A DNA stretch of 64,000 bases from an uncultured Acidimicrobiales bacterium. GTDB taxonomy: Bacteria > Actinomycetota > Acidimicrobiia > Acidimicrobiales > Bin134. The translations under genes and the position numbers were made by a program. This document shows positions 27,840 through 55,520 of the stretch, one piece after another (positions within the stretch are counted from its first letter, which is position 1; each line of letters starts with the position of its first letter). The stretch covers positions 2,447,076 through 2,511,075 of the forward strand of contig OX638344.1 in assembly GCA_951813555.1 (NCBI GenBank), given 5' to 3'. Under the pieces are notes generated by a model. That model saw only the letters and a list, made by a program, of their open reading frames with translations. It ran no database searches and was not told the DNA's origin.

Positions 27840-27890
27840 TTGCGTCTGATTTCGCGCGACGGATTCTGAGTTTCTTCAAACAGCATCGGG
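27840..27890 (-). repeat. 51-bp IS3 orfA fragment, copy 2
   Basis: Matches 25760-25810 at 48 of 51 positions. It supplies the stop codon of the truncated last array copy, so the junction at about 27890 records an IS-associated deletion that cut the 3' end of the array. Confidence 0.8.
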
Positions 27891-28076
27891 CACCTCACAC
27901 GACTCCGGCACAGCCCCGCCCGAACTGCCCGACCCGCACCCCCCCAACACCAACCCCACAACCACCACCGCCGCAATCCAGCCGCTATCCGGCCGCTGCC
28001 GATCTGGCCGCCCCGCGAAGCCCCGGACCGCGCTAAGCACGGCCAGCGGCTTTGCCATAGGCAGTTGCCACCTCAC
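27876..28076 (-). pseudogene. Array copy 15: truncated remnant (signal peptide only)
   Basis: 66 codons: leader MRWQLPMAKP, Arg-containing stretch, hydrophobic core, lipobox VLGGC (Cys47) and the first residues of the mature protein (VPESCEVPDAV), then a stop formed by fused IS3 sequence. The beta-helix and C-terminal parts are missing. GTG start 9 nt after the stop of copy 14, the same spacing as intact neighbours. It marks the downstream end of the array. Confidence 0.85.
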
Positions 28077-28085
28077 CCGCGGCCC

Positions 28086-29306
28086 TCAACCAAAGTCGAG
28101 CCCAGACCGCCCAGAACGCCGAATCCGCCACCCCAGCACAACAAGCAACAACAACCCCGCAAAAGCCCAAACCCAAACCCAAGAAAAACCGCCAGAACCC
28201 GCACACCCTCCAGGACCACCATAATTTGGGACTGAGTGCACCCAGAGGTCACCGCAAACTTCTCCGCCGCCCACATTCGTTTGGCCGGAGATTCGCCCGT
28301 CCTGGTGAACCCTGGCTGGGCCGAACACGTGTGACCCGCCCCACACTCTCGCCCGGCCATAGACAACAGCATCGCCGAACACAGCAGTAGGCCGATACTT
28401 AGTTATGCGAATGTCGTCATCCCACTTGTCTTGGATTTGCAGATCAACGGTTTCCAACAAATCGTCAAGTGCTTCCTCAACTGAACTCAAAGGCAGAGTC
28501 CACTGCACAGGAACTTGAACACCTGGGTTATTCTTATAAGGTATCGTGACTAGTGAGTTCGTCCAGAGTTTGCGGGCGAGGTCGACGTTGTCGAACACAG
28601 GCCGTTTGAGGACATTGCTGTCGGCGCTTTCTCCGGTCAAGTGCTGCGAGTGGGACGAGTCGAACACCATTGCCTGGCCGCTCACTTGTGCCCGTCCGTA
28701 GATCCGCGCCGAGTCGAACACCTGCGCCTCGCCGCCCACCACAGCGGTGCCATAGACCTCAGCGTCGCCGAACACCGCCGCGTTTCCGGACACCAACGCG
28801 TCGCCCGACACTGCGGCGTCGCCGAATACCCGGGCGTCTCCGCCGACCCATGCGCCGCCCTCGTGGGCGAGGTTGTGTCCGGTTTGTATCCAGCCGCCCA
28901 CATCGCCCCGCTTGGCCCTCAGTACTTTCTCTCCGTCGGGCAGCTCCGCGACCACGTCGCGCAGCGCCACAACCCGGCACAGCCCCGCCCGGCCGCCGTG
29001 AACACACCCCACACCGCCCCCCGCAACCCCGCCGTCTGATACCGGCGCGGCCACGCTGCGGGCCGCATCGACGCAGTACTTCACATCAACAACACCGTCG
29101 GGAACCACACACGACTCCGGCACAACCCCGCCCGAACCACCCGACCCGCAACCCCCCAACACCAACCCCACAACCACCACCGCCAAAACCGGCCCAAAGC
29201 CCGGCCGCCGCCGAAAACAGCCCCCGCCGCCCGGCCACCGCCGAACCGGCACCCCCGCCGAACCTCGGACCGCGCTAAGCACGGCCAGCGGCTTTGCCAT
29301 AGGCAT
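28086..29306 (-). CDS. Array copy 14: short hexapeptide beta-helix lipoprotein, insert class C
   Basis: 406 aa. Lipobox VLGGC (Cys53) after a long Arg-containing leader; Cys-rich segment 66-110; RGDVGGWIQTGHNLAHEGGAWV at 133-154, written here in two parts (RGDVGGWIQ and NLAHEGGAWV), which matches the entry motif of YdcK/phage-type hexapeptide proteins; ten V-x-G-x-A-x hexapeptides at 154-213; non-helical insert at about 214-303 (EEALDDLLETVD, class C); six further rungs at 304-340; cap with two Cys (VCGDLWVHS...C); membrane helix 375-393; basic tail RIRRSGR. The first upstream start is out of frame because of an extra A in the leader DNA, so ATG 29306 is used. 23 nt after copy 13. Surface exposure is inferred. 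Confidence 0.85.
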   Translation of the reverse strand: MPMAKPLAVLSAVRGSAGVPVRRWPGGGGCFRRRPGFGPVLAVVVVGLVLGGCGSGGSGGVVPESCVVPDGVVDVKYCVDAARSVAAPVSDGGVAGGGVGCVHGGRAGLCRVVALRDVVAELPDGEKVLRAKRGDVGGWIQTGHNLAHEGGAWVGGDARVFGDAAVSGDALVSGNAAVFGDAEVYGTAVVGGEAQVFDSARIYGRAQVSGQAMVFDSSHSQHLTGESADSNVLKRPVFDNVDLARKLWTNSLVTIPYKNNPGVQVPVQWTLPLSSVEEALDDLLETVDLQIQDKWDDDIRITKYRPTAVFGDAVVYGRARVWGGSHVFGPARVHQDGRISGQTNVGGGEVCGDLWVHSVPNYGGPGGCAGSGGFSWVWVWAFAGLLLLVVLGWRIRRSGRSGLDFG

Positions 29307-29329: not shown

Positions 29330-30502
29330 TCAACCAAAGCCGAGCCCAGACCGCCTAGAACGCCGAAGCCGCCACCCCGCCACAACTACCAGCAACAACC
29401 CCGCAAAAACCCAAACCCAAACCCAAGAAAAGCCGCCAGAATCCGCACACTTTATAGAACCGCCATAACCTAGGGATGAGTGTAACCAGGCATCACTGCA
29501 CACTCTTCCGCCGCCCAAATTCGTTTGGCCGGACACGCGCCCGTCCTGGTGAACTTCGGCTCCGCCGAACACGTGTGATCCGCCCCATACTTTTGCCTGT
29601 CCGTGGATTACGGCATCGCCGAACACAGCAGTAGGCCGATACGAAGTCGCCAAAACGTCGTCACTCCACTCTTCCCGGCTCGCCGGAACAAGCATTTCCA
29701 ACTCCGACAACCTGAGTGAATCCTCAAGGCTTCTCAAATGCCGAACCCACGTCACAGTATCTGGAGCACCTGGGTTATTCTCGTCAGGTACTGTGACTCG
29801 TGAGTCTGTCCAGAGTTTGCGGGCGGGGTCGTCTTGTTCGAACACCTGCATGTACGCGGGGTTGCCCTCAGGGCTTTCTCCGTTCCAGTGCTGCGAGTGG
29901 GACGAGTCGAACACCATGGCCTGGCCGCTTACTTGTGCCCGTCCGTAGATCCGCGCCGCGTCGAACACCTGCGCCTCGCCGGACACCTCAGCGGTGCCAT
30001 AGACCTCAGCGTCGCCGAACACCGCCGCGTTTCCGGACACCAACGCGTCGCCGGACACTGCGGCGCCGTCGAACACCCGGGCGTCGCCGCCGACCCATGC
30101 GCCGCCCTCGTGGGCGAGGTTGCGCCCGGTTTGTATCCAGCCGCCCACATCGCCGCGCTCGGCCCTCACTACTTCCCCTCCGTCGGGCAGCTCCGCAACC
30201 ACGTCGCGCAGCGCCACAACCCGGCACAGCCCCGCCCGGCCCCCGTGAACACACCCGAAACCGCCCCCCGCAACCCCGGCGTCTGTTACCGGCGCGGCCA
30301 CGCTGCGGGCCACGTCGACGCAGTACTTCGCGTCCGCAACACCCTCGGGCACCGCACACGACTCCGGCACAGCCCCGCCCGAACCGCCCGACCCGCAACC
30401 CCCCAACACCAACCCAACAACCACCACCACCGCCAAAACCCGGCCGCCACCCGGCCACCGCCGATCTGGCCGCCCCGCGAAAGCCCGGACCGCGCTAAGC
30501 AC
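29330..30502 (-). CDS. Array copy 13: short hexapeptide beta-helix lipoprotein, insert class B
   Basis: 390 aa, the shortest intact copy. The usual start is lost: the ATG after the leader CCT codon is ATA here, so GTG 30502 (MLSAVRAFAGR) is the first usable codon and lipobox Cys is residue 36. Ten hexapeptides at about 137-196, insert with SLRLSELEMLVPAS (class B, 209-289), second helix segment 290-330, cap variant RVCSDAWLHSSLGYGGSIKC, membrane helix and tail RLRRSRR. The gap to copy 12 is 47 nt, longer than most because of the shifted start. Confidence 0.82.
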   Translation of the reverse strand: MLSAVRAFAGRPDRRWPGGGRVLAVVVVVGLVLGGCGSGGSGGAVPESCAVPEGVADAKYCVDVARSVAAPVTDAGVAGGGFGCVHGGRAGLCRVVALRDVVAELPDGGEVVRAERGDVGGWIQTGRNLAHEGGAWVGGDARVFDGAAVSGDALVSGNAAVFGDAEVYGTAEVSGEAQVFDAARIYGRAQVSGQAMVFDSSHSQHWNGESPEGNPAYMQVFEQDDPARKLWTDSRVTVPDENNPGAPDTVTWVRHLRSLEDSLRLSELEMLVPASREEWSDDVLATSYRPTAVFGDAVIHGQAKVWGGSHVFGGAEVHQDGRVSGQTNLGGGRVCSDAWLHSSLGYGGSIKCADSGGFSWVWVWVFAGLLLVVVAGWRLRRSRRSGLGFG

Positions 30503-30549: not shown

Positions 30550-31776
30550 TCAACCAAAGCCGAGCCCAGAACGCCCAGAACGCCGAAACCGCCACCCCGC
30601 CACAACAACCAGCAACAACCCCGCAAAACCCCAAACCCAAACCCAAGAAAAGCCGCCAGAATCCGCACACTTTATAGAACCACCATAAGCTTGGACTGAG
30701 TGCACCCAGGCATCACTGCATACTTCTCCCCCACCCACATTTGAATGGGCGGATATGCGCCCGTCCTGGTGAACCCTGGCTGGGCCGAACACGTATGACC
30801 CGCCCCACACTCTTGCCCGCCCGTGGACAACAGCATCGCCGTACACAGCAGTAGGCCGATACGAAGCCGCCAAAACGTCGTCACCCCACTCGTCCCGGCT
30901 CGCCGGAACAAGCATTTCCAACTCCGACAACCTGAGTGAATCCTCAAGGCTGCTCAAATGCCGAGCCCAAAGCACAGGAACTTGAACACCTGGGTTATTC
31001 TCATAAGGTATTGTGACTAGTGAGTCTGTCCACAGTTTGCGGGCGGGGTCGTCTTGTTCGAACACCGACCGGTACACGGGATCGCCTTCAGCGCTTTCTC
31101 CGTTCCAGTGCTGCGAGTGGGAGGAGTCGAACACCATGGCCTGGCCGCGCACTTGTGCCCGTCCGTAGATCCGCGCCGCGTCGAACACCTGCGCTTCGCC
31201 GCCCACCTCAGCGGTGCCATAGACCTCAGCGTCGCCGAACACCGCCGCGTTTCCGGACACCAACGCGTCGCCGGACACTGCGGCGTCGCCGAACACCCGG
31301 GCGTCGCCGCCGACCCATGCGCCGCCCTCGTGGGCGAGGTTGCGCCCGGTTTGTATCCAGCCGCCCACATCGCCGCGCTCGGCCCTCACTACCTCCCCTC
31401 CGTCGGGCAGCTCCGCGACCACGTCGCCCAGCGCCACAACCCGGCACAGCCCCGCCCGGCCCCCGTGAACACACCCCACACCGCCCCCCACAACCCCGGC
31501 CCCGCTGTCTGTTACCGGCGCGGCCACGCTGCGGGCCACATCGACGCAGTACTTCGCATCCACAACACCGTCGGGCACCGCACACGACTCCGGCACAACC
31601 CCACCCGAACCACCCGACCCGCAACCCCCCAACACCAACCCCACAACCACCACAACCGCCAAAACCCGGCCGCCACCCGGCCACCGCCGAACCGGAACCC
31701 CCGCCCAACAGCCCGCGAAGCCTCGGACCGCGCTACGCACGGCCAGCGGCATTGCCATAGGCAGTCGCCACCTCAC
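30550..31776 (-). CDS. Array copy 12: short hexapeptide beta-helix lipoprotein, insert class B
   Basis: 408 aa. GTG 31776 begins the full leader MRWRLPMAMP; lipobox Cys52. Ten hexapeptides, then insert class B (SLRLSELEMLVPASRDEW) preceded by the segment VTIPYENNPGVQVPVLW, so two insert halves seen separately elsewhere are combined. The cap is SDAWVHSVQAYGGSIKC. 9 nt after the stop of copy 11 without a Shine-Dalgarno sequence, so termination-reinitiation is likely. Its leader-coding region belongs to the block that is identical at 38.1-38.9 kb. Confidence 0.85.
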   Translation of the reverse strand: MRWRLPMAMPLAVRSAVRGFAGCWAGVPVRRWPGGGRVLAVVVVVGLVLGGCGSGGSGGVVPESCAVPDGVVDAKYCVDVARSVAAPVTDSGAGVVGGGVGCVHGGRAGLCRVVALGDVVAELPDGGEVVRAERGDVGGWIQTGRNLAHEGGAWVGGDARVFGDAAVSGDALVSGNAAVFGDAEVYGTAEVGGEAQVFDAARIYGRAQVRGQAMVFDSSHSQHWNGESAEGDPVYRSVFEQDDPARKLWTDSLVTIPYENNPGVQVPVLWARHLSSLEDSLRLSELEMLVPASRDEWGDDVLAASYRPTAVYGDAVVHGRARVWGGSYVFGPARVHQDGRISAHSNVGGGEVCSDAWVHSVQAYGGSIKCADSGGFSWVWVWGFAGLLLVVVAGWRFRRSGRSGLGFG

Positions 31777-32446
31777 CCGCGGCCCTCAACCAAATCCGAG
31801 CCCAGACCGCCCAGAACGCCGAATCCGCCACCCCAGCACAACAAGCAACAACAACCCCGCAAAAACCCAAACCCAAACCCAAGAAAAACCACCAGAACCC
31901 GCACACTTTGCAAAACCAACATAAGCTCCGAGTGAGTGCACCCAGAGATCACCGCACACGTCTCCGCCGCCCATATTCGTTTGGCCAGATATGCGCCCGT
32001 CCTGGTGAACCCTGGCTGGGCCGAACACGTGTGACCCGCCCCACACTCTTGCCCGCCCGTGGACAACAGCATCGCCGTACACAGCAGTAGGCCGATACGA
32101 AGTCGCCAGAACGTCGTCACCCCACTCGTTTTGGAATTGCGGATCAACTATTTCCAACAACTCGTCAACTGCTTCCTCAATTCTACTCAGACTCCTATGC
32201 CACAGCACAGGAACTTGAACACCTGGGTTGTTTTCATCAGGTATCAAGACTCGTGAGTCTGTCCACAGTTTGCGGGCGGGATCGTCTTGTTCGAACACCG
32301 ACCGGTACGCGGGGTTGCCTTCTGGGCTTTCTCCGTTCCAGTGCTGCGAGTGGGAGGAGTCGAACACCATGGCCTGGCCGCGCACTTGTGCCCGGTCGTA
32401 GATCCGCGCCGCGTCGAACACCTGCGCCTCGCCGCCCACCACAGCG
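31655..32446. repeat. 792-bp exact repeat, left copy (partner 38138-38929)
   Basis: By direct reading, 31655-32446 and 38138-38929 are the same sequence at a constant offset of 6483 bp, with scattered mismatches on the left and a clear divergence from base 32447 on. The block runs from the leader of copies 12 and 8 into the middle of copies 11 and 7. Sharp edges inside genes indicate gene conversion or a recent segmental duplication. Confidence 0.85.
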
Positions 32447-32979
32447 GTGCCATAGACCTCAGCGTCGCCGAACACCGCCGAGTCGCCGCCTACTACTGCG
32501 TCGCCGGACACTGCGGCGCCGCCGAACACCCGGGCGTCGCCGCCGACCCACGCGCCGCCCTCGTGGGCGAGGTTGCGCCCGGTTTGTATCCAGCCGCCCA
32601 CATCGCCGCGCTCGGCCCTCACTACCTCCCCTCCGTCGGGCAGCTCCGCAACCACGTCGCGCAGCGCCACAACCCGGCACAGCCCCGCCCGGCCGCCGTG
32701 AACACACCCCACACCGCCCCCCGCAACCCCGCTCCCGCCCGGCGCGGCCACGCTGCGGGCCACGTCGACGCAGTACTTCGCGTCCGCAACACCGTCGGGC
32801 ACCACACACGACTCCGGCACAGCCCCGCCCGACCCGCCCGACCCGCAACCCCCCAACACCAACCCCACAACCACCACCGCCAAAACCCGGCCGCCACCCG
32901 GCCACCGCCGAACCGGAACCCCCGCCCAACAGCCCGCGAAGCCCCGGATCGCGCTAAGCACGGCCAGCGGCCTTGCCAT
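31786..32979 (-). CDS. Array copy 11: short hexapeptide beta-helix lipoprotein, insert class A
   Basis: 397 aa from ATG 32979 (MARPLAVLSAI); lipobox Cys45. Ten hexapeptides with the variant pair VSGDAV-VGGDSA. Insert class A (SRIEEAVDELLEIVDPQF), second helix segment with VFGPARVHQDGRIS, cap VCGDLWVHSLGAYVGFAKC, membrane helix, tail RIRRSGR. Its 3' two-thirds are base-for-base identical to copy 7 (see the 6483-bp-spaced repeat), which points to recent gene conversion. 29 nt after copy 10. Confidence 0.85.
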   Translation of the reverse strand: MARPLAVLSAIRGFAGCWAGVPVRRWPGGGRVLAVVVVGLVLGGCGSGGSGGAVPESCVVPDGVADAKYCVDVARSVAAPGGSGVAGGGVGCVHGGRAGLCRVVALRDVVAELPDGGEVVRAERGDVGGWIQTGRNLAHEGGAWVGGDARVFGGAAVSGDAVVGGDSAVFGDAEVYGTAVVGGEAQVFDAARIYDRAQVRGQAMVFDSSHSQHWNGESPEGNPAYRSVFEQDDPARKLWTDSRVLIPDENNPGVQVPVLWHRSLSRIEEAVDELLEIVDPQFQNEWGDDVLATSYRPTAVYGDAVVHGRARVWGGSHVFGPARVHQDGRISGQTNMGGGDVCGDLWVHSLGAYVGFAKCAGSGGFSWVWVWVFAGLLLLVVLGWRIRRSGRSGLGFG

Positions 32980-33008: not shown

Positions 33009-34199
33009 TCAACCAAATCCGAGCCCAGACCGCCCAGAGCGCCGAATCCGCCACCCCAGCACAACGAGCAACAACAACCCCGCAAAAACCCAAACCCAAA
33101 CCCAAGAAAAACCACCAGAACCCGCACACCCTCCAGGACCACCATAAGCTCGGACTGAGTGCACCCAGAGATCACCGCACACGTCTCCGCCGCCTATATT
33201 CGTTTGGCCAGATATGCGCCCGTCCTGGTGAACCCTGGCTAGGCCGAACACGTGTGACCCGCCCCACACTTTTGCCTGGCCATAGACAACAGCATCGTCG
33301 AACACAGCAGTAGGCCGATACGGAGTTTTTGAAAAGTCGTCACCCCACTCGTTTTGGAATTGCGGATCAACTATTTCCAACAACTCGTCAACTGCTTCCT
33401 CAATTCTACTCAGACTCCTATGCCATTCCATATCATCAGGATAATCTGGAGATCTTTGATCGGGTATGATAACTCGTGAGTTTGTCCACAGTACGCGGGC
33501 GGGATCGTCTTGTTCAAACACCGACCGGTACACGGAGTTTCCCTCAGCTCCCTCTCCAACCCAATACTGCGAGTGGGACGAGTCGAACACCATGGCCTGG
33601 CCGCGCACTTGTGCCCGTCCGTAGATCCGCGCCGAGTCGAACACCTGCGCGTCGCCGGACACCCGAGCGCTGCCGGACACCTCAGCGCTGCCGAACACCG
33701 CCGCATCGCCCGACACCAACGCGTCGCCCGACACTACTGCGCTGTCGAACACCCGGGCGTTGCCGCTGACCCACGCGCCGCCCTCGTGGGCGAGGTTGCG
33801 CCCGGTTTGTATCCAGCCGCCCACATCGCCCCTCTTGGCCCTCACTACTTCCCCACCGTCGGGCAGCTCCGCAACCACGTCGCGCAGCGCCACAACCCGG
33901 CACAGCCCCGCCCGGCCGCCGTGAACACACCCGACACCGCCCCCCGCAACCCCGGCCCCGCTATCTGAGACCGGCGCGGCCACGCTGCGGGCCACATCGA
34001 CGCAGTACTTCGCATCCACAACACCGTCGGGAACCACACACGACTCCGGCACAACCCCGCCCGAACCACCCGACCCGCAACCCCCCAACACCAACCCCAG
34101 AACCACCACCGCCAAAACCCGGCCGCCACCCGGCCACCGCTGATCTGACCGCCCCGCGAAGCCCCGGACCGCGCTAAGCACGGCCGGCGGCTTTGCCAT
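33009..34199 (-). CDS. Array copy 10: short hexapeptide beta-helix lipoprotein, insert class A
   Basis: 396 aa from ATG 34199 (MAKPPAVLSAV); lipobox Cys41. The codon matching the usual start (34217) is ACG instead of ATG, so the internal ATG is taken; an upstream ATG at 34268 would overlap copy 9 further. The hexapeptide block is the most diverged among short copies (VSGNAR, VFDSAV, VSGSAR, VSGDAQ) but still has ten rungs. The segment before the insert is unique (IIPDQRSPDYPDDMEW), followed by class A. Cap VCGDLWVHSVRAYGGPGGC; tail RIRRSGR. Its start lies inside the 3' end of copy 9. Confidence 0.82.
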   Translation of the reverse strand: MAKPPAVLSAVRGFAGRSDQRWPGGGRVLAVVVLGLVLGGCGSGGSGGVVPESCVVPDGVVDAKYCVDVARSVAAPVSDSGAGVAGGGVGCVHGGRAGLCRVVALRDVVAELPDGGEVVRAKRGDVGGWIQTGRNLAHEGGAWVSGNARVFDSAVVSGDALVSGDAAVFGSAEVSGSARVSGDAQVFDSARIYGRAQVRGQAMVFDSSHSQYWVGEGAEGNSVYRSVFEQDDPARVLWTNSRVIIPDQRSPDYPDDMEWHRSLSRIEEAVDELLEIVDPQFQNEWGDDFSKTPYRPTAVFDDAVVYGQAKVWGGSHVFGLARVHQDGRISGQTNIGGGDVCGDLWVHSVRAYGGPGGCAGSGGFSWVWVWVFAGLLLLVVLGWRIRRSGRSGLGFG

Positions 34200-37025
34200 A
34201 GGCAGATGCCACTTCGTAGGCGAAACAAGCCGCGCTAATAGTGAAGCCAATGGCGCTAGAGAAGCCAAGGGCGCCGAAAGGGACTACCGACGGGGCGAAA
34301 CATGCCAGTGAATTCCAGGGGAAATCTCCAGATCCCACACAATTTTGAACACCAACATAATTATTGATTGAGTGCACCCAGAGATCACTGCACACTTCTC
34401 CACCGCTCATCGTCGTGTAGGCGGATATGCGCCCGTGCTGGTGCACTTCGGCTCCGCCAAGAACGATTGAACCGCCCCACACTCTCGCTTGGCCATAGAC
34501 AACTGCATCGCCGAACACAGCAGTAGGCCGATACTTAGTCATGCGAATGTCGTCATCCCATGTGCCTTGGGGCGAATCCACGGTTTCCAACAAATCGTCA
34601 AGTGCTTCCTCAACTAGGCTCAAAGGCCAATGCCACAGCACAGTTTCTTGAACACCTGGGTTGTTCTCATAAGGTACTGTGACTAGTGAGTTTGTCCACA
34701 GTACGCGGGCGGGGTCGTTGTCTTCGAATACATCCCGTTTGAGGGTATTGCCGTCGGCGTCTTCTCCAATCCAATACTCCGAGTTGGAAAAGTCGAACAC
34801 CATGGCCTGACCGTACACTTCGGCGTTGCCGTACACTTCGGCGCCGTCGAACACTTGCGCGTTGCCGTGGATTTTGGTTTCTTCGCCGAAGATTTTGGCC
34901 GAGCCGAACACTTTGGCGTGTCCGGTTACCGTGGCTGTTTCGTACACCTCGGCGTCGCCGAATACCCGGGCGTTCTCGGACACGGTGGCATTGTCAGACA
35001 CTTTGGCATCGCCGTAGACCCGCGGAGAGTAGTGGAACACGGCGTTGGCATCGCGAGGGGCGGCGGCGACCACTTTGGCCCGCTGCGACACGCGGGCATT
35101 TCCGTACACTTTGGTGCGGTCGGCACGGTTGTCGGGGAAGTGGGTGCCCTCCACCACCGCTCCGTCTTTGACGATGGCGTCGCCGCATACCAGGGCTGCA
35201 CCCGCAATCACGACTCCGTAGTAGTCGGCCAAAAAGTCGTCGTCGTCGCTGTTCTCGGCCAGGGCATTGAGCGTGCTGCCGTCGCTGAACGCCTTGGCAT
35301 CGTCGTACACCTTGGCCGAGCTGGTCACCAGCGTGTTATCGGTCACCCTGGCGCGCTCATACACTTGGGCGTCGAGCTCCACCACCGCGTTTCCGCCCAC
35401 CCGGGCATCGTCGTACACCTTGGCGCGGTCGCGGACCTCGGCTGTGCCGCTCACCTGGGCGTCGTCGTACACCCACGCCTCGTCGCCATACACCTTGGCC
35501 TGGCCGGTCACCGTGGCCCGGTCGTACACCTTCGCCTGCTGCGACACCCAGGGCCCGCCGCGGGGCTTTTCCTCGCTGCAAACTTTGGCGTCGCCGTGCA
35601 CCTCGACCTCTTCGCCGCTCACCACAGCCCCGCCGCACACCTCGGCGTTGCCGTACACCTTGGCCTGCTCCGACACCCGGGCGTCGCCGAACACCTTCGC
35701 CCTGTCGTACACCTTCGCCTGCCCCGACACCCGGGCGCGGCCGTACACCTCGGCGTTGCCCGACACCTCGGCGTTGCCCGACACCCAGGCGTTGCCGTAC
35801 ACCTCGGCCCGCTCATCGCGATTCTTCGGCAGCCGGCCCAGCGTCGGCGGGAACGCCGCATCCCCATAATAGGTAAAATCGTAGGTCTCGGTGTCGCCGG
35901 ACACCACAGCCCCCTCGCCGTCCACGAAGGCCTCGCCGTACACCGAGCCCGTGACGGTGACCCCGCCGGAGACCCTGGCGTGGCCGTACACGAAGGCGTT
36001 GCCCTCCACCACGGCGTCGCCGAACACCCAAGCGTTGCCGTAGACAAAAGCGTTGCCCCCCACAACGGCATTTCCGGCCCCCCAGGCGTCGCCGGCCCCC
36101 CAGGCGTCGCCGGCCAAGCTGGCCGAATCGGCCATCCCGCCGCCCGGGTCGCCCTTTCTCACCAGGACCAAGTTCCCCTCGTGGTCCACCTTGACCCGGT
36201 CGCGGTCAGAATAGACGCGCATCACCTGGGGGAGAAGTACTGCTTTGCCCCCACGCCGTCTACGGGCACATCCATCAGCTCGTCTTCGGCAAGGCAAAAC
36301 GTCAAGCCTTCGGGCACAACACACGAATCGGGCAACGGCAACGGCTCAACCGTCTCGCAAACCCGAGTCACCCCAGCAGACCACCCCTTGGCGCCACCCG
36401 CCTGAACCTCGACCTCTTTTTGAACCTCGACGGTGTACGCAGTGCTGTAAGCCAGACCGCCGAAAACAGCCAAAGCGCCATCGATCTCGTCCCAAGTTGT
36501 CCAATCGCCAACCCCGGGACTCATATTGCGCCGGATCCGGTATCTCGACGTGTCCTCCAACTCACCCCACACAGCAACAAACGTGCTGGTGCCCACAACG
36601 CAATCCAACGCCAAACCAACCCCGCCAGCAGTGGCACAGGTCTCAACCGCGGCGTCACCCCAACGGGAGCCATCACCAGCTTGAACCCTGACCTCATACG
36701 AGGTGGAGGCACTCAGACCTTCGAAGGTGAATTCAGTGCCGACAACGACAGCCCGCTCGCCGCCGAGCAACACCTGATAATGCTTTGCCCCCTCCACTTC
36801 CTCCCACGACACAGTGATGCTGGTCGACGTCACCACACACGACACCGGCACAACCCCGCCCGAACTACCCGACCCGCACCCCCCCAACACCAACCCCACA
36901 ACCACCACCGCCAAAACCGGCCCAAAACCCGACCGCCGAACCGGCAGCCCCGCCGAGGAGCCCGCGAAGCCCCGGACCACGCTAAGCACGACCGGGGGCT
37001 TTGCTATAGGCAGTCGCCACCTCAC
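34174..37025 (-). pseudogene. Array copy 9: long FnIII + hexapeptide beta-helix lipoprotein, frameshifted
   Basis: About 950 codons if the frame is restored. The 5' part (37025 to about 36230) encodes leader, lipobox Cys50, two Cys-bounded FnIII-type domains (CVVTSTSITVSWEEVEGA; CVVGTSTFVAVWGELEDTS) and a Cys-Pro linker ending YFSP. The 3' part continues in another frame (RVYSDRDRVKVDHEGN) with about 70 hexapeptide-like rungs, the variable insert (class C), cap and a hydrophobic tail (ACFAYEVASAYGKAAGRA). The frames meet at a run of five G on the plus strand (36228-36232); copy 6 has six G at the same place (41524-41529). One lost base therefore explains the break. Phase variation or sequencing error are alternatives. 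GTG start overlaps copy 8 by 44 nt. Confidence 0.8.
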
Positions 37026-38259
37026 CCCGCGGCCGCCAACCCAAAACGAGCCCAGACCGCCCAGAACGCCGAAACCGCCACCCCGCCACAACAACCAACA
37101 ACAACCCCCCAAAAACCCAAACCCAAACCCAAGAAAAGCCGCCAGAACCCGCACACCCTTCAGGGCCACCATAATTTTGGGCTGAGTGTAACCACATATC
37201 ACTACACACCTCTCCAGCATCAATAGTTGTATGGCCGGACACGCGCCCATCCTGGTGAATCTCGGCTCGGCCGAACACATATGACCCGCCCCACACTCTC
37301 GCCTGGCCATAGACAGCAGCATCGTCAAAGACAGCGGTAGGCCGATAAGGAAATGCAACAACGCCGTCATCCCACTCGTCCCGACTCGCCGGAACAAGCG
37401 GCTCGCCTAGCTCGTCAAGTCTTTTCACTACCCTGCTAAACGATGAAACCCACTCCATTTCATCTGGAGCACTTTGGGGATTTTCATCAGGTACAAAAAC
37501 TTGTGAGTCTGTCCACAATTTGCGGGCGGGATCGTCTTGTTCGAACACCGACCGGTACGCGGGGTTGCCTTCTGGGCTTTCTCCGTTCCAGTGCTGCGAG
37601 TGGGAGGAGTCGAACACCATGGCCTGGCCGCGCACTTGTGCCCGGTCGTAGATCCGCGCCGCGTCGAACACCTGCGCTTCGCCGCCCACCACAGCGGTGC
37701 CATAGACCTCAGCGTCGCCGAACACCGCCGAGTCGCCGCCTACTACTGCGTCGCCCGACACTGTGGCGTCGTCGTATACCCGGGCGTCGCCTCCGACCCA
37801 CGCGCCGCCCTCGTGGGCGAGGTTGCGCCCGGTTTGTATCCAGCCGCCCACATCGCCGCGCTCGGCCCTCACTACCTCCCCTCCGTCGGGCAGCTCCGCG
37901 ACCACGTCGCGCAGCGCCACAACCCGGCACAGCCCCGCCCGGCTGCCGTGAACACACCCGACACCGCCCCCCGCAACCCCGGCCCCGCTGTCTGTTACCG
38001 GCGCGGCCACGCTGCGGGCCACATCGACGCAGTACTTCGCATCCACAACACCGTCGGGCACCGCACACGACTCCGGCACAACCCCACCCGAACCACCCGA
38101 CCCGCACCCCCCCAATACCAACCCCACAACCACAACCACCGCCAAAACCCGGCCGCCACCCGGCCACCGCCGAACCGGAACCCCCGCCCAACAGCCCGCG
38201 AAGCCTCGGACCGCGCTACGCACGGCCAGCGGCATTGCCATAGGCAGTCGCCACCTCAC
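36982..38259 (-). CDS. Array copy 8: short hexapeptide beta-helix lipoprotein with extended C-terminus, insert class D
   Basis: 425 aa. GTG 38259, leader nearly identical to copy 12, lipobox Cys52. Ten hexapeptides including VYDDAT and VGGDSA. The insert is unique (RVVKRLDELGEPLVPAS, class D), preceded by FVPDENPQSAPDEMEW. The second segment includes VFDDAA and VSGHTT. After the membrane helix and RFRRSGR the frame does not stop but reads on through the leader-coding DNA of copy 9 (GEVATAYSKAPGRA), ending at 36982, a 44-nt overlap. It thus joins a short-type membrane segment to a long-type tail. Confidence 0.83.
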   Translation of the reverse strand: MRWRLPMAMPLAVRSAVRGFAGCWAGVPVRRWPGGGRVLAVVVVVGLVLGGCGSGGSGGVVPESCAVPDGVVDAKYCVDVARSVAAPVTDSGAGVAGGGVGCVHGSRAGLCRVVALRDVVAELPDGGEVVRAERGDVGGWIQTGRNLAHEGGAWVGGDARVYDDATVSGDAVVGGDSAVFGDAEVYGTAVVGGEAQVFDAARIYDRAQVRGQAMVFDSSHSQHWNGESPEGNPAYRSVFEQDDPARKLWTDSQVFVPDENPQSAPDEMEWVSSFSRVVKRLDELGEPLVPASRDEWDDGVVAFPYRPTAVFDDAAVYGQARVWGGSYVFGRAEIHQDGRVSGHTTIDAGEVCSDMWLHSAQNYGGPEGCAGSGGFSWVWVWVFGGLLLVVVAGWRFRRSGRSGLVLGWRPRGEVATAYSKAPGRA

Positions 38260-38929
38260 CCGCGGCCCTCAACCAAATCCGAGCCCAGACCGCCCAGAAC
38301 GCCGAATCCGCCACCCCAGCACAACAAGCAACAACAACCCCGCAAAAACCCAAACCCAAACCCAAGAAAAACCACCAGAACCCGCACACTTTGCAAAACC
38401 AACATAAGCTCCGAGTGAGTGCACCCAGAGATCACCGCACACGTCTCCGCCGCCCATATTCGTTTGGCCAGATATGCGCCCGTCCTGGTGAACCCTGGCT
38501 GGGCCGAACACGTGTGACCCGCCCCACACTCTTGCCCGCCCGTGGACAACAGCATCGCCGTACACAGCAGTAGGCCGATACGAAGTCGCCAGAACGTCGT
38601 CACCCCACTCGTTTTGGAATTGCGGATCAACTATTTCCAACAACTCGTCAACTGCTTCCTCAATTCTACTCAGACTCCTATGCCACAGCACAGGAACTTG
38701 AACACCTGGGTTGTTTTCATCAGGTATCAAGACTCGTGAGTCTGTCCACAGTTTGCGGGCGGGATCGTCTTGTTCGAACACCGACCGGTACGCGGGGTTG
38801 CCTTCTGGGCTTTCTCCGTTCCAGTGCTGCGAGTGGGAGGAGTCGAACACCATGGCCTGGCCGCGCACTTGTGCCCGGTCGTAGATCCGCGCCGCGTCGA
38901 ACACCTGCGCCTCGCCGCCCACCACAGCG
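38138..38929. repeat. 792-bp exact repeat, right copy (partner 31655-32446)
   Basis: Identical to 31655-32446 by direct reading. It covers the 5' end of copy 8 and the 3' two-thirds of copy 7. At 38930 the base differs (C instead of G), and beyond that the hexapeptide codons differ (GVAVDG-type against VVGGDS-type rungs). Confidence 0.85.
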
Positions 38930-39471
38930 CTGCCATAGACCTCAGCGTCGCCGAACACCGCGGCGTTGCCGTCTACTACTGCGTCGCCGGACACTGCGGC
39001 GCCGCCGAACACCCGGGCGTCGCCGCCGACCCACGCGCCGCCCTCGTGGGCGAGGTTGCGCCCGGTTTGTATCCAGCCGCCCACATCGCCCCGCTCGGCC
39101 CTCACTACCTCCCCTCCGTCGGGCAGCTCCGCAACCACGTCGCGCAGCGCCACAACCCGGCACAGCCCCGCCCGGCCGCCGTGAACACACCCCACACCGC
39201 CCCCCGCAACCCCGCTCCCGCCCGGCGCGGCCACGCTGCGGGCCACATCGACGCAGTACTTCGCATCAACAACACCGTCGGGCACCACACACGACTCCGG
39301 CACAGCCCCGCCCGAACCACCCGACCCGCAACCCCCCAACACCAACCCCACAACCACCGCCGCCACCGCAACCCGGCCACCACCCGGCCACCGCCGAAAC
39401 GGCAGCCCCGGCGAACCTCGGACCGCGCTAAGCACGACCGGGGGCTTTGCTGTAGGCAGTTGCCACCTCAT
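38269..39471 (-). CDS. Array copy 7: short hexapeptide beta-helix lipoprotein, insert class A
   Basis: 400 aa from ATG 39471, which follows CTCAT on the plus strand and overlaps the 3' end of copy 6 by 44 nt. Leader MRWQLPTAKPPVVLSAV, core VAVAAVVVGLVLGGC with Cys48. Ten hexapeptides with VSGDAV-VDGNAA. From the middle onward it is identical to copy 11, including the class A insert, cap and tail. The frame is open further upstream but that is coding sequence of copy 6. Confidence 0.84.
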   Translation of the reverse strand: MRWQLPTAKPPVVLSAVRGSPGLPFRRWPGGGRVAVAAVVVGLVLGGCGSGGSGGAVPESCVVPDGVVDAKYCVDVARSVAAPGGSGVAGGGVGCVHGGRAGLCRVVALRDVVAELPDGGEVVRAERGDVGGWIQTGRNLAHEGGAWVGGDARVFGGAAVSGDAVVDGNAAVFGDAEVYGSAVVGGEAQVFDAARIYDRAQVRGQAMVFDSSHSQHWNGESPEGNPAYRSVFEQDDPARKLWTDSRVLIPDENNPGVQVPVLWHRSLSRIEEAVDELLEIVDPQFQNEWGDDVLATSYRPTAVYGDAVVHGRARVWGGSHVFGPARVHQDGRISGQTNMGGGDVCGDLWVHSLGAYVGFAKCAGSGGFSWVWVWVFAGLLLLVVLGWRIRRSGRSGLGFG

Positions 39472-42322: not shown

Positions 42323-43528
42323 TCAACCAAAGCCGAGCCCAGACCGCCCAGAACGCCGAAACCGCCACCCCAGCACCACAACTACCAACAACAACCCCCC
42401 AAAAACCCAAACCCAAACCCAAGAAAAACCGCCAGAACCCGCACATTGTTCATTACCGGCATAGTCTATGTATGAGTGTACCCAGAGATCGCTGCACACC
42501 TCTCCATCACCCATACCTGTATAAGCGGATATGCGCCCGCTTTGATGCACCTCGGCTCCGCCGAACACGTGTGATCCGCCCCACACTTTTGCCTGTCCGT
42601 GGACTACGGCATCGCCGAACACAGCAGTAGGCCGATACGGAGCTATCAACACAGTATCATCCCATTCATCTTGTAGTGGCGGAGCAACGGTCCCCAACAA
42701 CTCGTCAACTGCTTCCTCAACTGAACTCAAACTCCGAGTCCACGTCACAACAACTGGAACACCTGGGGTGCTTTCGTCAGGTATTGTGACTCGTGAGTTT
42801 GTCCACAGTTTGCGGGCGAGGTCGTTGTTGTCAAATACGGGGCTGTAGAGGGCATTGCTGTCGGCGCTTTCTCCGTTCCAGTGCTGCGAGTGGGACGAGT
42901 CGAACACCATGGCCTGGCCGCGCACTTGTGCCCGTCCGTAGATCCGCGCCGAGTCGAACACCTGCGCCTCGCCGCCCACCTCAGCAGCGCCGGACACCTC
43001 AGCGTTGCCGAACACTACTGCGTTGCCGTCTACTACTGCGTCGCCGGACACTGCGGCGTCGTCGAACACCCGGGCGTCGCCGCCGACCCACGCGGCGCCC
43101 TCGTGGGCGAGGTTGCGCCCGGCTCGTATCCAGCCGCCCACATCGCCCCGCTCGGCCCTCACTACTTCCCCTCCGTCGGGCAGCTCCGCGACCACGTCGC
43201 GCAGCGCCACAACCCGGCACAGCCCCGCCCGGCCGCCGTGAACACACCCCACACCGCCCCCCACAACCCCGCCGTCTGAAACCGGCGCGGCCACGCTGCG
43301 GGCCACATCGACGCAGTACTTCGCATCAACAACACCGTCGGGCACCGCACACGACTCCGGCACAACCCCGCCCGAACCACCCGACCCGCAACCCCCCAAC
43401 ACCAACCCCACAACCACCACCACGGCAATCCAGCCGCTACTCGGCCCCTGCCGATCTGGCCGCCCCGCGAAACCCCGGACCGCGCTAAGCACGGCCAGGG
43501 GCTTTGCCATAGGCAGTTGCCACCTCAC
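42323..43528 (-). CDS. Array copy 5: short hexapeptide beta-helix lipoprotein, insert class C-like
   Basis: 401 aa, GTG 43528, lipobox Cys47; the leader matches that of the remnant copy 15 (RPDRQ-P-SGWIA). Ten hexapeptides with VFGNAE-VSGAAE. Insert EEAVDELLGTVAPPLQDEW preceded by VTIPDESTPGVPVVVTW, a combination seen only here. Cap VCSDLWVHSYIDYAGNEQC; membrane helix; tail RFRRSGRSGLGFG. 9 nt after copy 4; 78 nt before the truncated start of copy 6. Confidence 0.84.
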   Translation of the reverse strand: MRWQLPMAKPLAVLSAVRGFAGRPDRQGPSSGWIAVVVVVGLVLGGCGSGGSGGVVPESCAVPDGVVDAKYCVDVARSVAAPVSDGGVVGGGVGCVHGGRAGLCRVVALRDVVAELPDGGEVVRAERGDVGGWIRAGRNLAHEGAAWVGGDARVFDDAAVSGDAVVDGNAVVFGNAEVSGAAEVGGEAQVFDSARIYGRAQVRGQAMVFDSSHSQHWNGESADSNALYSPVFDNNDLARKLWTNSRVTIPDESTPGVPVVVTWTRSLSSVEEAVDELLGTVAPPLQDEWDDTVLIAPYRPTAVFGDAVVHGQAKVWGGSHVFGGAEVHQSGRISAYTGMGDGEVCSDLWVHSYIDYAGNEQCAGSGGFSWVWVWVFGGLLLVVVVLGWRFRRSGRSGLGFG

Positions 43529-43537
43529 CCGCGGCCA

Positions 43538-44803
43538 TCAACCAAAGCCGAGCCCAGACCGCCTAGAACGCCGAATCCGCCACCCCAGCACAACAAGCAA
43601 CAACAACCCCGCAAAAACCCAAACCCAAACCCAAGAAAAACCGCCAGAACCCGCACACTTTGCAAAACCAACATAAGCTCCGAGTGAGTGCACCCAGAGA
43701 TCACCGCACACGTCTCCGCCGCCCATATTCGTTTGGCCAGATATACGCCCGTCCTGGTGAACCCTGGCTGGGCCGAACACGTGTGACCCGCCCCACACCC
43801 TCGCCCGGCCATAGACAACAGCATCGCCGTACACAGCAGTAGGCCGATACGGAGTTATTGAAAAGTCGTCATCCCACTCGTTTTGGAATTGCGGATCAAC
43901 TATTTCCAACAAATCGTCAACTGCTTCCTCAATTCTACTCAAACTCCTATGCCACGTCAAAGTGATTTTCTCACCTGGGGTATACTCATAAGGTATCAAG
44001 ACCAGGGAGTTTGTCCACAGTTTGCGGGCGGGGTCGTCGTTGTCGAATACGGGGCGGTAGAGGGTATTGCCGTCGGCGTCTTCTCCGTTCCAGTGCTGCG
44101 AGTGGGAGGAGTCGAACACCATGGCTTGGCCGCTCACTTGTGCCCGTCCGTAGATCCGCGCCGAGTCGAACACCTGCGCCTCGCCACCCACCTCAGCGGT
44201 GCCATAGACCTCAGCGCTGCCGAACACCGCCGCGTTGCCGTCTACTACTGCGTCGCCGGACACTGCGGCGTCGTCGAACACCGCCGCGTTTCCGGACACC
44301 AACGCGTCGCCCGACACTGCGGCGTCGTCGAACACCCGGGCGTCGCCGCCGACCCATGCGCCGCCCTCGTGGGCGAGGTTGCGCCCGGTTTGTATCCAGC
44401 CGCCCACATCGCCCCGCTCGGCCCTCAGTACTTTCCCTCCGTCGGGCAGCTCCGCAACCACGTCGCGCAGCGCCACAACCCGGCACAGCCCCGCCCGGCC
44501 GCCGTGAACACACCCGACACCGCCCCCCGCAACCCCGGCCCCGCTGTCTGTTACCGGAGCGGCCACGCTGCGGGCCACATCGACGCAGTACTTCGCATCA
44601 ACAACACCGTCGGGCACCGCACACGACTCCGGCACAGCCCCGTCCGAACCACCCGACCCGCAACCCCCCAACACCAACCCAACAACCACCACCACCGCCA
44701 AAACCCGGCCGCCACCCGGCCACCGCCGATCTGGCCGCCCCGCGAAACCCCGGACCGCGCTAAGCACGGCCAGGGGCTTTGCTGTAGGCAGTTGCCACCT
44801 CAC
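43538..44803 (-). CDS. Array copy 4: short hexapeptide beta-helix lipoprotein with one extra coil, insert class A
   Basis: 421 aa, GTG 44803, lipobox Cys48. The first hexapeptide block has 13 rungs, not 10: the unit VFDDAA-VSGDAL-VSGNAA is followed by VFDDAA-VSGDAV-VDGNAA. Three rungs (18 residues, 54 nt) equal one full turn of a left-handed beta-helix, and the two units correspond to alternative rungs found singly in other copies. Insert class A-like (EEAVDDLLEIVDPQF) after LIPYEYTPGEKITLTW. Cap and tail as in copy 7. Confidence 0.85.
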   Translation of the reverse strand: MRWQLPTAKPLAVLSAVRGFAGRPDRRWPGGGRVLAVVVVVGLVLGGCGSGGSDGAVPESCAVPDGVVDAKYCVDVARSVAAPVTDSGAGVAGGGVGCVHGGRAGLCRVVALRDVVAELPDGGKVLRAERGDVGGWIQTGRNLAHEGGAWVGGDARVFDDAAVSGDALVSGNAAVFDDAAVSGDAVVDGNAAVFGSAEVYGTAEVGGEAQVFDSARIYGRAQVSGQAMVFDSSHSQHWNGEDADGNTLYRPVFDNDDPARKLWTNSLVLIPYEYTPGEKITLTWHRSLSRIEEAVDDLLEIVDPQFQNEWDDDFSITPYRPTAVYGDAVVYGRARVWGGSHVFGPARVHQDGRISGQTNMGGGDVCGDLWVHSLGAYVGFAKCAGSGGFSWVWVWVFAGLLLLVVLGWRIRRSRRSGLGFG

Positions 44804-44812: not shown

Positions 44813-46045
44813 TCAACCAAAGCCGAGCCCAGACCGCCCAGAACGCCGAAGCCGCCACCCCGCCACAACAACCAGCAACAACCCCGCAATAACCCAAACC
44901 CAAACCCAAGAAAAACCGCCAGAACCCGCACACTTTATAGAACCGCCATAACCTAGGGATGAGTGTAACCAGGCATCACTGCACACTCTTCCGCCGCCCA
45001 ATATTGTTTGCCCGGAGATTCGCCCGTCCTGGTGAACCCTGGCTGGGCCGAACACGTATGACCCGCCCCACACTCTCGCCCGCCCGTAGACAACAGCATC
45101 GCCGTACACAGCAGTAGGCCGATACGGGGCTGCCGAAACGTCGTCATCCCACTCTTCCCGGCTCGCCGGAACAAGCATCTCCAACTCCGACAACCTGAGT
45201 GAATCCTCAAGGCTGCTCAAATGCCGAGCCCACGTCCAAGTGATTTTCTCACCTGGGGTATACTCATAAGGTATAAAGACCATGGAGTTTGTCCACAGTT
45301 TGCGGGCGGGGTCGTCTTGTTCGAACACCGACCGGTACACGGGATCGCCTTCAGCGCTTTCTCCGTTCCAGTGCTGCGAGTGGGACGAGTCGAACACCAT
45401 TGCCTGGCCGCTCACTTGTGCCCGTCCGTAGATCCGCGCCGAGTCGAACACCTGCGCGTCGCCGCCCACCCGAGCGGTGCCATAGACCTCAGCGTCGCCG
45501 AACACCGCCGCGTTGCCGTCTACTACTGCGTCGTCCGACACTGCGGCGTCGTCGAATACCCGGGCGTTGCCGCCGACCCATGCGGCGCCCTCGTGGGCGA
45601 GGTTGTGTCCGGTTTGTATCCAGCCGCCCACATCGCCGCGCTCGGCCCTCACTACTTCCCCTCCGTCGGGCAGCTCCGCAACCACGTCGCGCAGCGCCAC
45701 AACCCGGCACAGCCCCGCCCGGCCCCCGTGAACACACCCCACACCGCCCCCCGCAACCCCGCCGCCTGATACCGGCGCGGCCACGCTGCGGGCCACATCG
45801 ACGCAGTACTTCGCGTCCGCAACACCGTCGGGCACCACACACGACTCCGGCACAACCCCGCCCGAACCACCCGACCCGCACCCCCCCAACACCAAACCCA
45901 CAACCACCACCGCCAAAACCGGCCCAAAGCCCGGCCCCCGCCGAAAACAGCCCCCGCCGCCCGGCCGCCCCGCCCAACAGCCCGCGAAGCCCCGGACTGC
46001 GCTAAGCACGGCCGGCGGCTTTGCCATAGGCAGTTGCCACCTCAC
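44813..46045 (-). CDS. Array copy 3: short hexapeptide beta-helix lipoprotein, insert class B
   Basis: 410 aa, GTG 46045, lipobox Cys56, with a Gly-rich leader like that of copy 14 (GGGGCFRR). Ten hexapeptides (VGGNAR, VFDDAA, VSDDAV, VDGNAA, ...). The insert joins FIPYEYTPGEKITWTW, as in copy 4, to class B (SLRLSELEMLVPASREEW), as in copies 12 and 13. Cap SDAWLHSSLGYGGSIKC as in copy 13. 9-nt gaps on both sides. Confidence 0.85.
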   Translation of the reverse strand: MRWQLPMAKPPAVLSAVRGFAGCWAGRPGGGGCFRRGPGFGPVLAVVVVGLVLGGCGSGGSGGVVPESCVVPDGVADAKYCVDVARSVAAPVSGGGVAGGGVGCVHGGRAGLCRVVALRDVVAELPDGGEVVRAERGDVGGWIQTGHNLAHEGAAWVGGNARVFDDAAVSDDAVVDGNAAVFGDAEVYGTARVGGDAQVFDSARIYGRAQVSGQAMVFDSSHSQHWNGESAEGDPVYRSVFEQDDPARKLWTNSMVFIPYEYTPGEKITWTWARHLSSLEDSLRLSELEMLVPASREEWDDDVSAAPYRPTAVYGDAVVYGRARVWGGSYVFGPARVHQDGRISGQTILGGGRVCSDAWLHSSLGYGGSIKCAGSGGFSWVWVWVIAGLLLVVVAGWRLRRSGRSGLGFG

Positions 46046-46054: not shown

Positions 46055-47299
46055 TCAACCAAAGCCGAGCCCAGACCGCCCAGAACGCCGAAGCCGCCAC
46101 CCCGCCACCACAACCAGCAACAACCCCGCAAAAACCCAAACCCAAACCCAAGAAAAACCGCCAGAACCCGCACACCTTACAGAACCGCCATAACCTAGGA
46201 CTGAGTGTAACCATGCATCACTGCACACTCTTCCGCCGCCCAAATTCGTTTGCCCGGAGATTCGCCCGTCCTGGTGAACCCTGGCTGGGCCGAACACGTA
46301 TGACCCGCCCCACACTCTCGCCCGCCCGTAGACAACAGCATCGCCGTACACAGCAGTAGGCCGATACGGGGCTGCCGAAATGTCGTCGTCCCACTCGTCC
46401 CGACTCGCCGGAACAAGCATTTCCAACTCCGACAACTTGAGTGATTCCTCAAGGCTGCTCAAAGGCCAAGACCACGTCCAAGTGATTTCATCATCTGGGG
46501 TATACTCATAAGGTACCAAGACCAGGGAGTTTGTCCACAGTACGCGGGCGGGGTCGTCGTCTTCGAACACGGGCCGGTAAAGGGAATTGCCGTCGGTGTC
46601 TTCTCCGTTCCAGTGCTGCGAGTGGGACGAGTCGAACACCATGGCCTGGCCGCTTACTTGTGCCCGTCCGTAGATCCGCGCCGAGTCGAACACCTGCGCC
46701 TCGCCGCCCACCACAGCGGTGCCATAGACCTCAGCGCTGCCGAACACCGCCGCGTTTCCGGACACCAACGCGTCGCCCGACACTGCGGCGTCGCCGAACA
46801 CCCGGGCGTCGCCGCCGACCCACGCGCCGCCCTCGTGGGCGAGGTTGCGCCCGGCTTGTATCCAGCCGCCCACATCGCCCCGCTCGGCCCTCACAACTTC
46901 CCCCCCGTCGGGCAGCTCCGCAACCACGTCGCGCAGCGCCACAACCCGGCACAGCCCCGACCGGCCCCCGTGAACACACCCCACACCGCCCCCCGCAACC
47001 CCGCCATCTGTTACCGGCGCGGCCACGCTGCGGGCCGCATCGACGCAGTACTTCGCATCCACAACACCGTCGGGCACCACACACGACTCCGGCACAGCCC
47101 CACTCGAACCACCCGACCCGCAACCCCCCAACACCAAACCCACAACCACCACCACGGCAATCCGGCCACCGCCCGGCCACCGCCGAAAACAGCCGCCGCC
47201 TGGCCGCCGCCGAACCGGGACCCCCGCCGGACAGCCAGCGAAGCCCGTGACCGCGCTAAGCACGGCCAGGGGCTTTGCTGTAGGCAGTTGCCACCTCAT
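46055..47299 (-). CDS. Array copy 2: short hexapeptide beta-helix lipoprotein, insert class B
   Basis: 414 aa from ATG 47299 (MRWQLPTAKPLAV); another in-frame ATG is at 47308. Lipobox Cys60 after a longer leader. Ten hexapeptides. The pre-insert segment (ARVLWTNSLVLVPYEYTPDD...ITWTWSWPL) is the same as in giant copy 1, but the insert that follows is class B (SLEESLKLSELEMLVPAS), so sequence has been exchanged between a long and a short copy. Tail RLRRSGR. Its start lies in the last 44 nt of copy 1, in another frame. Confidence 0.85.
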   Translation of the reverse strand: MRWQLPTAKPLAVLSAVTGFAGCPAGVPVRRRPGGGCFRRWPGGGRIAVVVVVGLVLGGCGSGGSSGAVPESCVVPDGVVDAKYCVDAARSVAAPVTDGGVAGGGVGCVHGGRSGLCRVVALRDVVAELPDGGEVVRAERGDVGGWIQAGRNLAHEGGAWVGGDARVFGDAAVSGDALVSGNAAVFGSAEVYGTAVVGGEAQVFDSARIYGRAQVSGQAMVFDSSHSQHWNGEDTDGNSLYRPVFEDDDPARVLWTNSLVLVPYEYTPDDEITWTWSWPLSSLEESLKLSELEMLVPASRDEWDDDISAAPYRPTAVYGDAVVYGRARVWGGSYVFGPARVHQDGRISGQTNLGGGRVCSDAWLHSVLGYGGSVRCAGSGGFSWVWVWVFAGLLLVVVAGWRLRRSGRSGLGFG

Positions 47300-55178: not shown

Positions 55179-55335
55179 CGCGCCGGCACCATCGGGAGCG
55201 CGTCCCGCGACTGCTTAGACCGGCACCGCGCCGGCACCATCGGGAGCGCGTCCCGCGACTGCTTAGACCGGCACCGCGCCGGCACCATCGGGAGCGCGTC
55301 CCGCGACTGCTTAGACCGGCACCGGCACCGCGCCG
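54505..55335. repeat. 16 tandem 48/54-bp Val/Pro-repeat units
   Basis: Units encode VPVKAVAGRAPDGAGA (48 bp) or the same with an extra Val-Pro (54 bp). Thirteen units carry an AAA lysine codon. The three nearest the 5' end of the gene (plus-strand TTA at 55215-55217, 55263-55265 and 55311-55313) carry TAA instead and are all in frame. In the protein this would be an extended, proline-rich stalk. Confidence 0.9.
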
Positions 55336-55520
55336 TCTGGCAATCTGCCAGAGGCATTCGAGTACTGGCTGTCAGCAGACGGCGCACCCTGCTCCCCATT
55401 AGCAGGGATTGGCGTGGATTCGCCTGAGCCAACTGTCCCCATTGGCTGCGCCCCTACAGGTACCGCCAAACCAGTCAATACCACAACAAACACAGCTACA
55501 ACAGCTACTACACGTTTCAC
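55311..55520 (-). CDS. Signal-peptide frame of array copy 1, ending at an in-frame TAA
   Basis: 69 codons from GTG 55520, preceded by a good ribosome site (GAGGAA, 7 nt upstream). MKRVVAVVAVFVVVLTGLAV with a cleavage-type site VGA-QP is a standard Sec signal peptide, without the lipobox of other copies. A Ser/Gly/Pro-rich mature start (GESTPIPANGEQGAPSA) follows and then the first Val/Pro unit, interrupted by TAA 55313-55311. It is in the same frame as the 2640-codon sequence, so both are parts of one ancestral gene. It may now be a pseudogene, or the downstream part may be reached by readthrough or restart. Confidence 0.75.
   Translation of the reverse strand: MKRVVAVVAVFVVVLTGLAVPVGAQPMGTVGSGESTPIPANGEQGAPSADSQYSNASGRLPDGAVPVPV

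Follow-up and report, generated by a model that had tools for sequence, protein, structure and literature searches.

A tandem array of genes for YdcK-type solenoid proteins in an uncultured Acidimicrobiales bacterium: a candidate recombining surface-protein family

Described systems closest to the array

YdcK (NF040481; PDB 2F9C and 2PIG; PF18836) has a cap motif followed by V-x-G-x-A-x hexads, a plan that recurs in the products of a tandem array of long (L) and short (S) genes in an uncultured Acidimicrobiales bacterium. The array lies in what we call the window, the whole stretch of 64,000 nucleotides analysed here, which spans bases 2447076-2511075 of a genome assembled as a single contig of 3.81 Mb. 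Unlike YdcK, the array proteins are by sequence exported and anchored, carry a variable insert and, in the L type, FnIII modules, and are encoded in tandem. Hexapeptide proteins of phages (phrog_5070, phrog_7964) have a homologous cap, GDVGGWIESEKNLS, and hexads as well, but they are encoded by single genes, with no export signal seen, a different C-terminal part and no array.

In its organisation, the array resembles the lpl genes of Staphylococcus aureus, paralogous lipoprotein genes that are arranged head to tail on a genomic island, vary in copy number and include mosaic copies. The protein family is unrelated, and we know of neither a solenoid nor a C-terminal membrane helix in lpl proteins. 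A second likeness is to vls of Borrelia, where antigenic variation proceeds by gene conversion and a variable centre between conserved ends is exchanged among copies. The array, too, exchanges a variable centre between copies whose ends are conserved, yet it lacks the single expression site and the silent cassettes of vls. Since each S copy has its own start, signal peptide and stop, we rejected a silent-cassette system of the vls kind.

Taken against these systems, the array is a real and unusual gene family, best placed among the recombining tandem families of surface proteins; it does not belong to the YdcK equivalog family. Such tandem families are already known; what is new is their base in a YdcK-type solenoid, and our literature search found no report of YdcK-type surface arrays.

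Fold and build of the array proteins

Scored with the pattern [VIL]-x-x-x-[AST]-x, L proteins contain 51-62 hexads (shuffle mean 1.1) and S proteins 17 (shuffle mean 0.8). Profile searches of solved structures returned YdcK as the sole confident relative (2F9C, 2PIG), with E-values of 6e-6 for S and 8.5e-12 for L, and L exceeded the cut-off of PF18836. Runs of hexads and homology to YdcK together identify a YdcK-type hexapeptide solenoid at the superfamily level, so that the hexapeptide repeats proposed in a sequence-only reading of this DNA are borne out, specifically as YdcK-type repeats. Membership in the YdcK family NF040481 was rejected, as S scored 42.5 bits and L 102.2 bits where the equivalog cut-off is 350. 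Among 396 genomes of the phylum searched with NF040481, matches came from this genome only.

AlphaFold models built on shallow alignments had pLDDT values of 38.9 (S) and 45.6 (L); residues 140-320 of the L model form strands that recur regularly at intervals of six residues, with block pLDDT of 52-74. Fold searches with these low-pLDDT models gave no significant match in the PDB; the non-significant matches of L were mostly parallel β-helices. Because of the weak models and the non-significant fold searches, the assignment of a left-handed helix rests on homology rather than on the models, and it is from the homology to YdcK that we infer a left-handed β-helix for both S and L proteins.

An enzymatic or cell-envelope polymer role, in which the proteins would be exported acyltransferase-like enzymes or a bactofilin-like scaffold, could appeal to the PDB label of YdcK as a putative transferase and to matches with bactofilin (PF04519). 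The latter are weak, however (24.1 and 20.4 bits against a gathering cut-off of 27.9), and we rejected this assignment; acyltransferase families had no match at cut-off, and the variable insert is at odds with a conserved active site. We regard such a role as highly improbable.

On the minus strand at 27876-55520, we mapped three L genes, 11 S genes and one truncated copy, in the transcription order L1-SSSS-L2-SS-L3-SSSSS-remnant. The tandem arrangement, the order and the single orientation given by the sequence-only reading are all confirmed by this mapping. Its fifteen genes are indeed present, but it had overlooked lesions in L1, L2 and L3, and the array, while located between the limits it gave, is part of a larger insertion of about 24043-55660. 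A search of the whole genome with the S protein placed 28 of 28 matches inside the array.

We label the S copies of this genome K and those of G014 (OX638350.1) M, the latter being an uncultured Acidimicrobiales bacterium and the second closed genome of the genus. Residue numbers refer to the mature S protein of copy K08 (window:31789-32847), to which the S copies are 78-96% identical. This protein begins at the lipobox cysteine (GLVLGG, then CGSGG) and comprises a Cys linker (residues 1-58), a YdcK-type cap with the motif VVALRDVV..RGDVGGW..NLA (59-94), a first helix of 11-14 hexads (95-163), a variable insert (164-250), a second helix segment of 6 hexads (251-297), a Cys-bounded loop (298-317) and a C-terminal hydrophobic segment with an arginine-rich tail (318-353). 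The GLVLGGC lipobox is found in 11 S copies of this genome and 12 of G014, and the C-terminal hydrophobicity (KD19) is 1.9-2.5. S proteins thus combine a lipobox signal with a hydrophobic helix and basic tail, as expected of exported lipoproteins with a C-terminal membrane anchor; L1 and L2 deviate from this pattern. Of the features named in the sequence-only reading, the VLGGC lipobox applies to the S genes and L3, but not to L1, with its type-I-like signal, nor to L2, which has none. The entry motif RGDxGGW-N-NLA is that of S, whereas L has KGxxGGxxxDSxSLA, and the C-terminal membrane segment was recovered, as a hydrophobic segment, in all genes.

Lipid at the N terminus and a helix at the C terminus would keep the S protein near the membrane and, in a monoderm, beneath the wall. 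As we picture it, the lipid and the membrane helix would hold the two ends, the helix serving as C-terminal anchor, while the short solenoid would face outward with a protruding insert of ~87 residues and the Cys-bounded loop. L proteins would add FnIII stalks to this arrangement.

Following the order of transcription, L1 (47256-55520) precedes K01 (46055-47299, start approximate), K02 (44813-46027, with AGGTGG before its ATG, 27 bp from the preceding stop), K03 (43538-44803, with three additional hexads in helix 1) and K04 (42323-43510). Between L2 (39428-42244) and L3 are K05 (38269-39471), which is near-identical to K08 and has an approximate start, and K06 (36982-38241), which has lost the usual stop and gains an L-type tail by readthrough. 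After L3 come K07 (33009-34199, its ATG 26 bp inside the 3' end of L3), K08 (31786-32979), K09 (30550-31758), K10 (29330-30502) and K11 (28086-29300), the last with an L-like insert identical to that of the G014 copy M09. A truncated S copy of 60 codons (27876-28058), cut by an IS3-like fragment, ends the array.

Most S genes start with an ATG after AGGTGG, 27-29 bp downstream of the preceding stop, a spacing that suggests one polycistronic unit and hence co-expression. A promoter search inside the array found 2 promoters at 2.3 expected, which is no excess, and L1 may head this unit of S genes. At 36982-37063, in K06, the junction is read through into a tail that normally belongs to L genes, so that this gene junction is readable in at least two frames.

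The long genes and the insertion

L1 starts with a GTG at 55520, from which the type-I-like signal VKRVVAVVAVFVVVLTGLAVPVGAQ is read. It continues with 16 units of a proline-rich repeat of 16-18 residues (a 54-nt repeat) and with FnIII modules, 17 of which share one type while two diverge from it. A Cys linker, a solenoid of ~50 hexads, an insert, a Cys loop and a C-terminal hydrophobic segment follow. The frame of 2755 codons contains in-frame TAA at codons 70, 86 and 102, that is, in repeat units 1-3 (55215-55313), where the other units have AAA; the ~2650 codons beyond these stops are open. The counterpart in G014 is intact and has 2360 residues. Contraction of the repeat in L1 would delete all three identical TAA codons.

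L2 combines two FnIII modules with the longest solenoid. It opens within an FnIII remnant and lacks a signal peptide in this genome and in G014 alike, from which it differs by one base in a C tract at 42258-42270. L3 is broken into two parts. The N-terminal part (36222-37025, start approximate) carries a lipobox signal and FnIII modules, and its frame ends by a frameshift in a C5 tract (36228-36232) that is C6 in L2 and in G014; the C-terminal part (34174-36236) continues in the shifted frame with solenoid, insert, Cys loop and hydrophobic tail. All three L genes of this genome therefore look damaged or headless. The one-base differences of L2 and L3 are both from C6 to C5. As G/C homopolymers of length 6 are similarly frequent in this genome and in G014 (60 and 59), we rejected a systematic homopolymer error as their source; a local error could still account for them.

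These lesions could also be read as phase switching, with the stop-bearing units of L1 and the C-tract lengths of L2 and L3 toggling the long proteins through repeat contraction or slippage while the S proteins are made constitutively. The confinement of the L1 stops to three repeat units, the open codons downstream and the intact copy in G014 would fit such a switch, as would the common C6-to-C5 change at homopolymer counts that speak against a systematic sequencing fault. However, C6 is a short tract for slippage, the sample comprises one sequence per species, and the lesions are explained equally well by plain mutational loss of function or by a local error in the consensus. We consider phase switching quite improbable.

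The insertion that contains the array (24043-55660) is flanked by secF (55660-56763) and by apt-relA (from 24043 down to 21256). These neighbours are ~30 kb apart in this genome and in G014, whereas in 16 of 20 other congeners the site is empty, secF lying within about 100 bp of apt-relA (of relA in G004 and G016). Among the remaining congeners, G008 has no secF match, and the contig ends of G009 and G011 are too near the site for judgement. In G020 (G020:C257), a different sequence directly follows secF, and the site may therefore be a recurrent insertion point.

Beside the array, the insertion contains a methyltransferase-like gene on the plus strand (24348-25337), with weak matches to Methyltransf_23 and CmoB-like proteins, which is 98% identical to its counterpart in G014 (dS 0.047). 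We rejected it as a partner of the array, as it has relatives in G003, G017 and G019, where the array was not found. IS3-like transposase remnants, recognised by eye, are located at 25494-25853 on the minus strand; a 58-bp piece of them recurs at 27836-27893 (91%), and the truncated S copy adjoins an IS3-like fragment. On the plus strand at 25896-27830, between copies of the 58-bp piece, is the gene of a polytopic membrane protein that by eye resembles GT-C glycosyltransferases. The protein has a DELQHFDYV loop and two Cys-type FnIII modules at its end, had no match in Pfam or NCBIfam, and was not seen in the island of G014. In its place, G014 has a secreted Calx-beta-like protein (2267642-2269810, plus strand) with a metalloprotease-like motif, HELGHSVYD, also noted by eye. 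A prophage or integrative element was rejected, as there was no tRNA, Rfam match or identified integrase, only the IS3-like scraps.

Distribution, exchange among copies and possible role

At the same site, G014 carries an array of the same architecture that differs in copy number, having 2 L and 12 S genes; the comparison of related genomes proposed with the sequence-only reading thus found both the array and the variation in copy number. Its presence in an independent closed genome excludes an assembly artefact. When we searched 397 genomes of the order with an S profile, scoring up to five candidates in each genome and with most of the other genomes being fragmented drafts, seven had a match and only these two had the array. 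Short-read bins are expected to break or miss such arrays, which may therefore be under-reported.

The more distant relatives are single divergent genes, for which no tandem copies were seen. Three of them, in other Acidimicrobiales (G017:C111, G079:C12, G400:C129), encode exported solenoid proteins that resemble L in having FnIII, RCC1 or Calx-beta modules ahead of cap and solenoid. They are possibly a family of their own; a CxYDGxxEY-like motif is found at their C termini. The single S-like lipoprotein gene of G008 resembles S in its lipobox, Cys linker, cap, helix, insert and second helix, but is without the C-terminal membrane segment. The earlier statement that the known proteins of this type are single YdcK-like or phage proteins was therefore nearly right, missing these exported, modular single-copy members.

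Recombination among the copies, as had been proposed, is strongly supported. In 23 S copies with 320 informative sites, PHI deviated from the permutation mean by z = -25, none of 2000 permutations being as extreme, and the copies are strongly mosaic: the nearest relative of an S copy switches between segments and in many cases comes from the other species. The gene ends are homogenised, while the insert and the Cys loop vary. The 28 proteins show 19 combinations of insert sub-blocks, and S and L have insert alleles in common, namely B3 in L1 and its neighbour K01, B5 in K07 and an L of G014, and D4 in K04, M12 and an L of G014. With head-to-tail mosaic paralogues that differ in copy number between related genomes, the array qualifies as a recombining tandem family of putative surface proteins.

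Divergence within this genome (K-K), within G014 (M-M) and between the two (K-M) is equal in every segment, with overall pN of 0.115, 0.118 and 0.115, respectively. The mean K-M dS is 0.20, compared to mostly 0.3-0.5 for flanking genes between both genomes. Exact K-M runs of at least 100 bp number 42 in 19.6 kb of array and 3 in 31.9 kb of flank. The array count is inflated by the many paralogue pairs, so that we base the argument on the low dS between K and M and on the equality of the divergences. These point to exchange or transfer after the species split; the longest exact tract common to both arrays measures 241 bp. Judged by these sequence comparisons, the array recombines internally and between species.

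At a probability of roughly 55%, we read the array as a multigene family that recombines, is located on an island and encodes exported, membrane-anchored solenoid proteins of the YdcK type with a role in surface binding. Against this reading count the damaged or headless look of all three L genes in this genome and the expected position of the S proteins close to the membrane. The near-identical 5' leader and cap segments and 3' membrane segments would provide the homology for unequal crossing-over and gene conversion, and recombination would alter the number of copies (S, 11 here and 12 in G014; L, 3 here and 2 in G014) and reshuffle the sub-blocks of the insert, with segments moving between species as well. 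The solenoid would serve as scaffold, insert and Cys loop being the likely contact surfaces, and the outcome would be a diverse repertoire of surface binding modules. The surface binding proteins that the bacterium displays would thus probably form a changing set. A more elaborate version appears unlikely to us: surface diversification would be combinatorial across species, conserved leaders would let insert sub-blocks pass between S and L genes and from species to species, stop-bearing repeat units would silence L1 reversibly, and the repertoire would tune how the bacterium attaches to an animal host or is recognised by it.

The substitution rates differ between segments. Linker and cap have dN of 0.03-0.04 and dS of about 0.09-0.12, the insert 0.28-0.30 and about 0.44. 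The dN/dS of linker, cap and helices is 0.38-0.42, that of the insert 0.65 (bootstrap 0.48-0.89), which makes the insert variable without a clear sign of positive selection. For the Cys loop, we rejected positive selection, as its dN/dS of 1.37 is not significant (interval 0.61-3.23). Variation of insert and Cys loop is compatible with relaxed constraint alone, and dN/dS does not support diversification beyond that.

Duplication and gene conversion might also have inflated the family neutrally or selfishly, with little selected function and an array now in decay. The three stops of L1, the missing signal peptide of L2, the frameshift of L3 and the truncated last copy are signs of such decay; the inner FnIII units of L1 are 97-100% identical in DNA, and most congeners lack the array. 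Yet all 11 S frames are open and retain lipobox and membrane segment, the dN/dS of their linker, cap and helices is 0.38-0.42, L1 keeps its long open stretch past the stops, and the array has been kept in two species, in one of which L1 is intact. We consider neutral amplification unlikely.

Phages could be the driving force if the proteins were phage receptors or decoys and insert recombination were kept for altered phage susceptibility instead of host adhesion. The cap and hexad domain has small homologues on 18 viral contigs, many of them with 50-58% identity across cap and first rungs, which gives this fold a history in common with phages, and variable loops with cross-species exchange are compatible with an arms race. 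The phage relatives, however, are single genes with another C-terminal part and no signal peptide seen, we identified neither phage nor defence genes in the island, and anchoring close to the membrane is not well suited to a phage receptor. To us, this explanation seems improbable.

For the recombining family of surface binding proteins that we favour, we see adhesion to, or recognition of, an animal host as the likeliest role, with a sponge as the most plausible host; both host and binding are our inference. The adhesin function suggested in the sequence-only reading is accordingly plausible. FnIII and other eukaryotic-like repeat proteins are reported to be enriched in sponge symbionts, with a presumed part in host interaction (PMC5524777, PMC9531527), and Acidimicrobiales are named among active sponge bacteria (PMC12398682). 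The presence of the order in sponges and the FnIII enrichment in their symbionts suggest a sponge association. If our reading is true, the YdcK-type fold gains a role as a recombinable display scaffold, and the array would offer a concrete locus for testing surface diversification in an uncultured bacterial lineage.

Elsewhere in the window, at 63119-63416, a tandem repeat of 27/54 nt with 11 copies follows ruvB.
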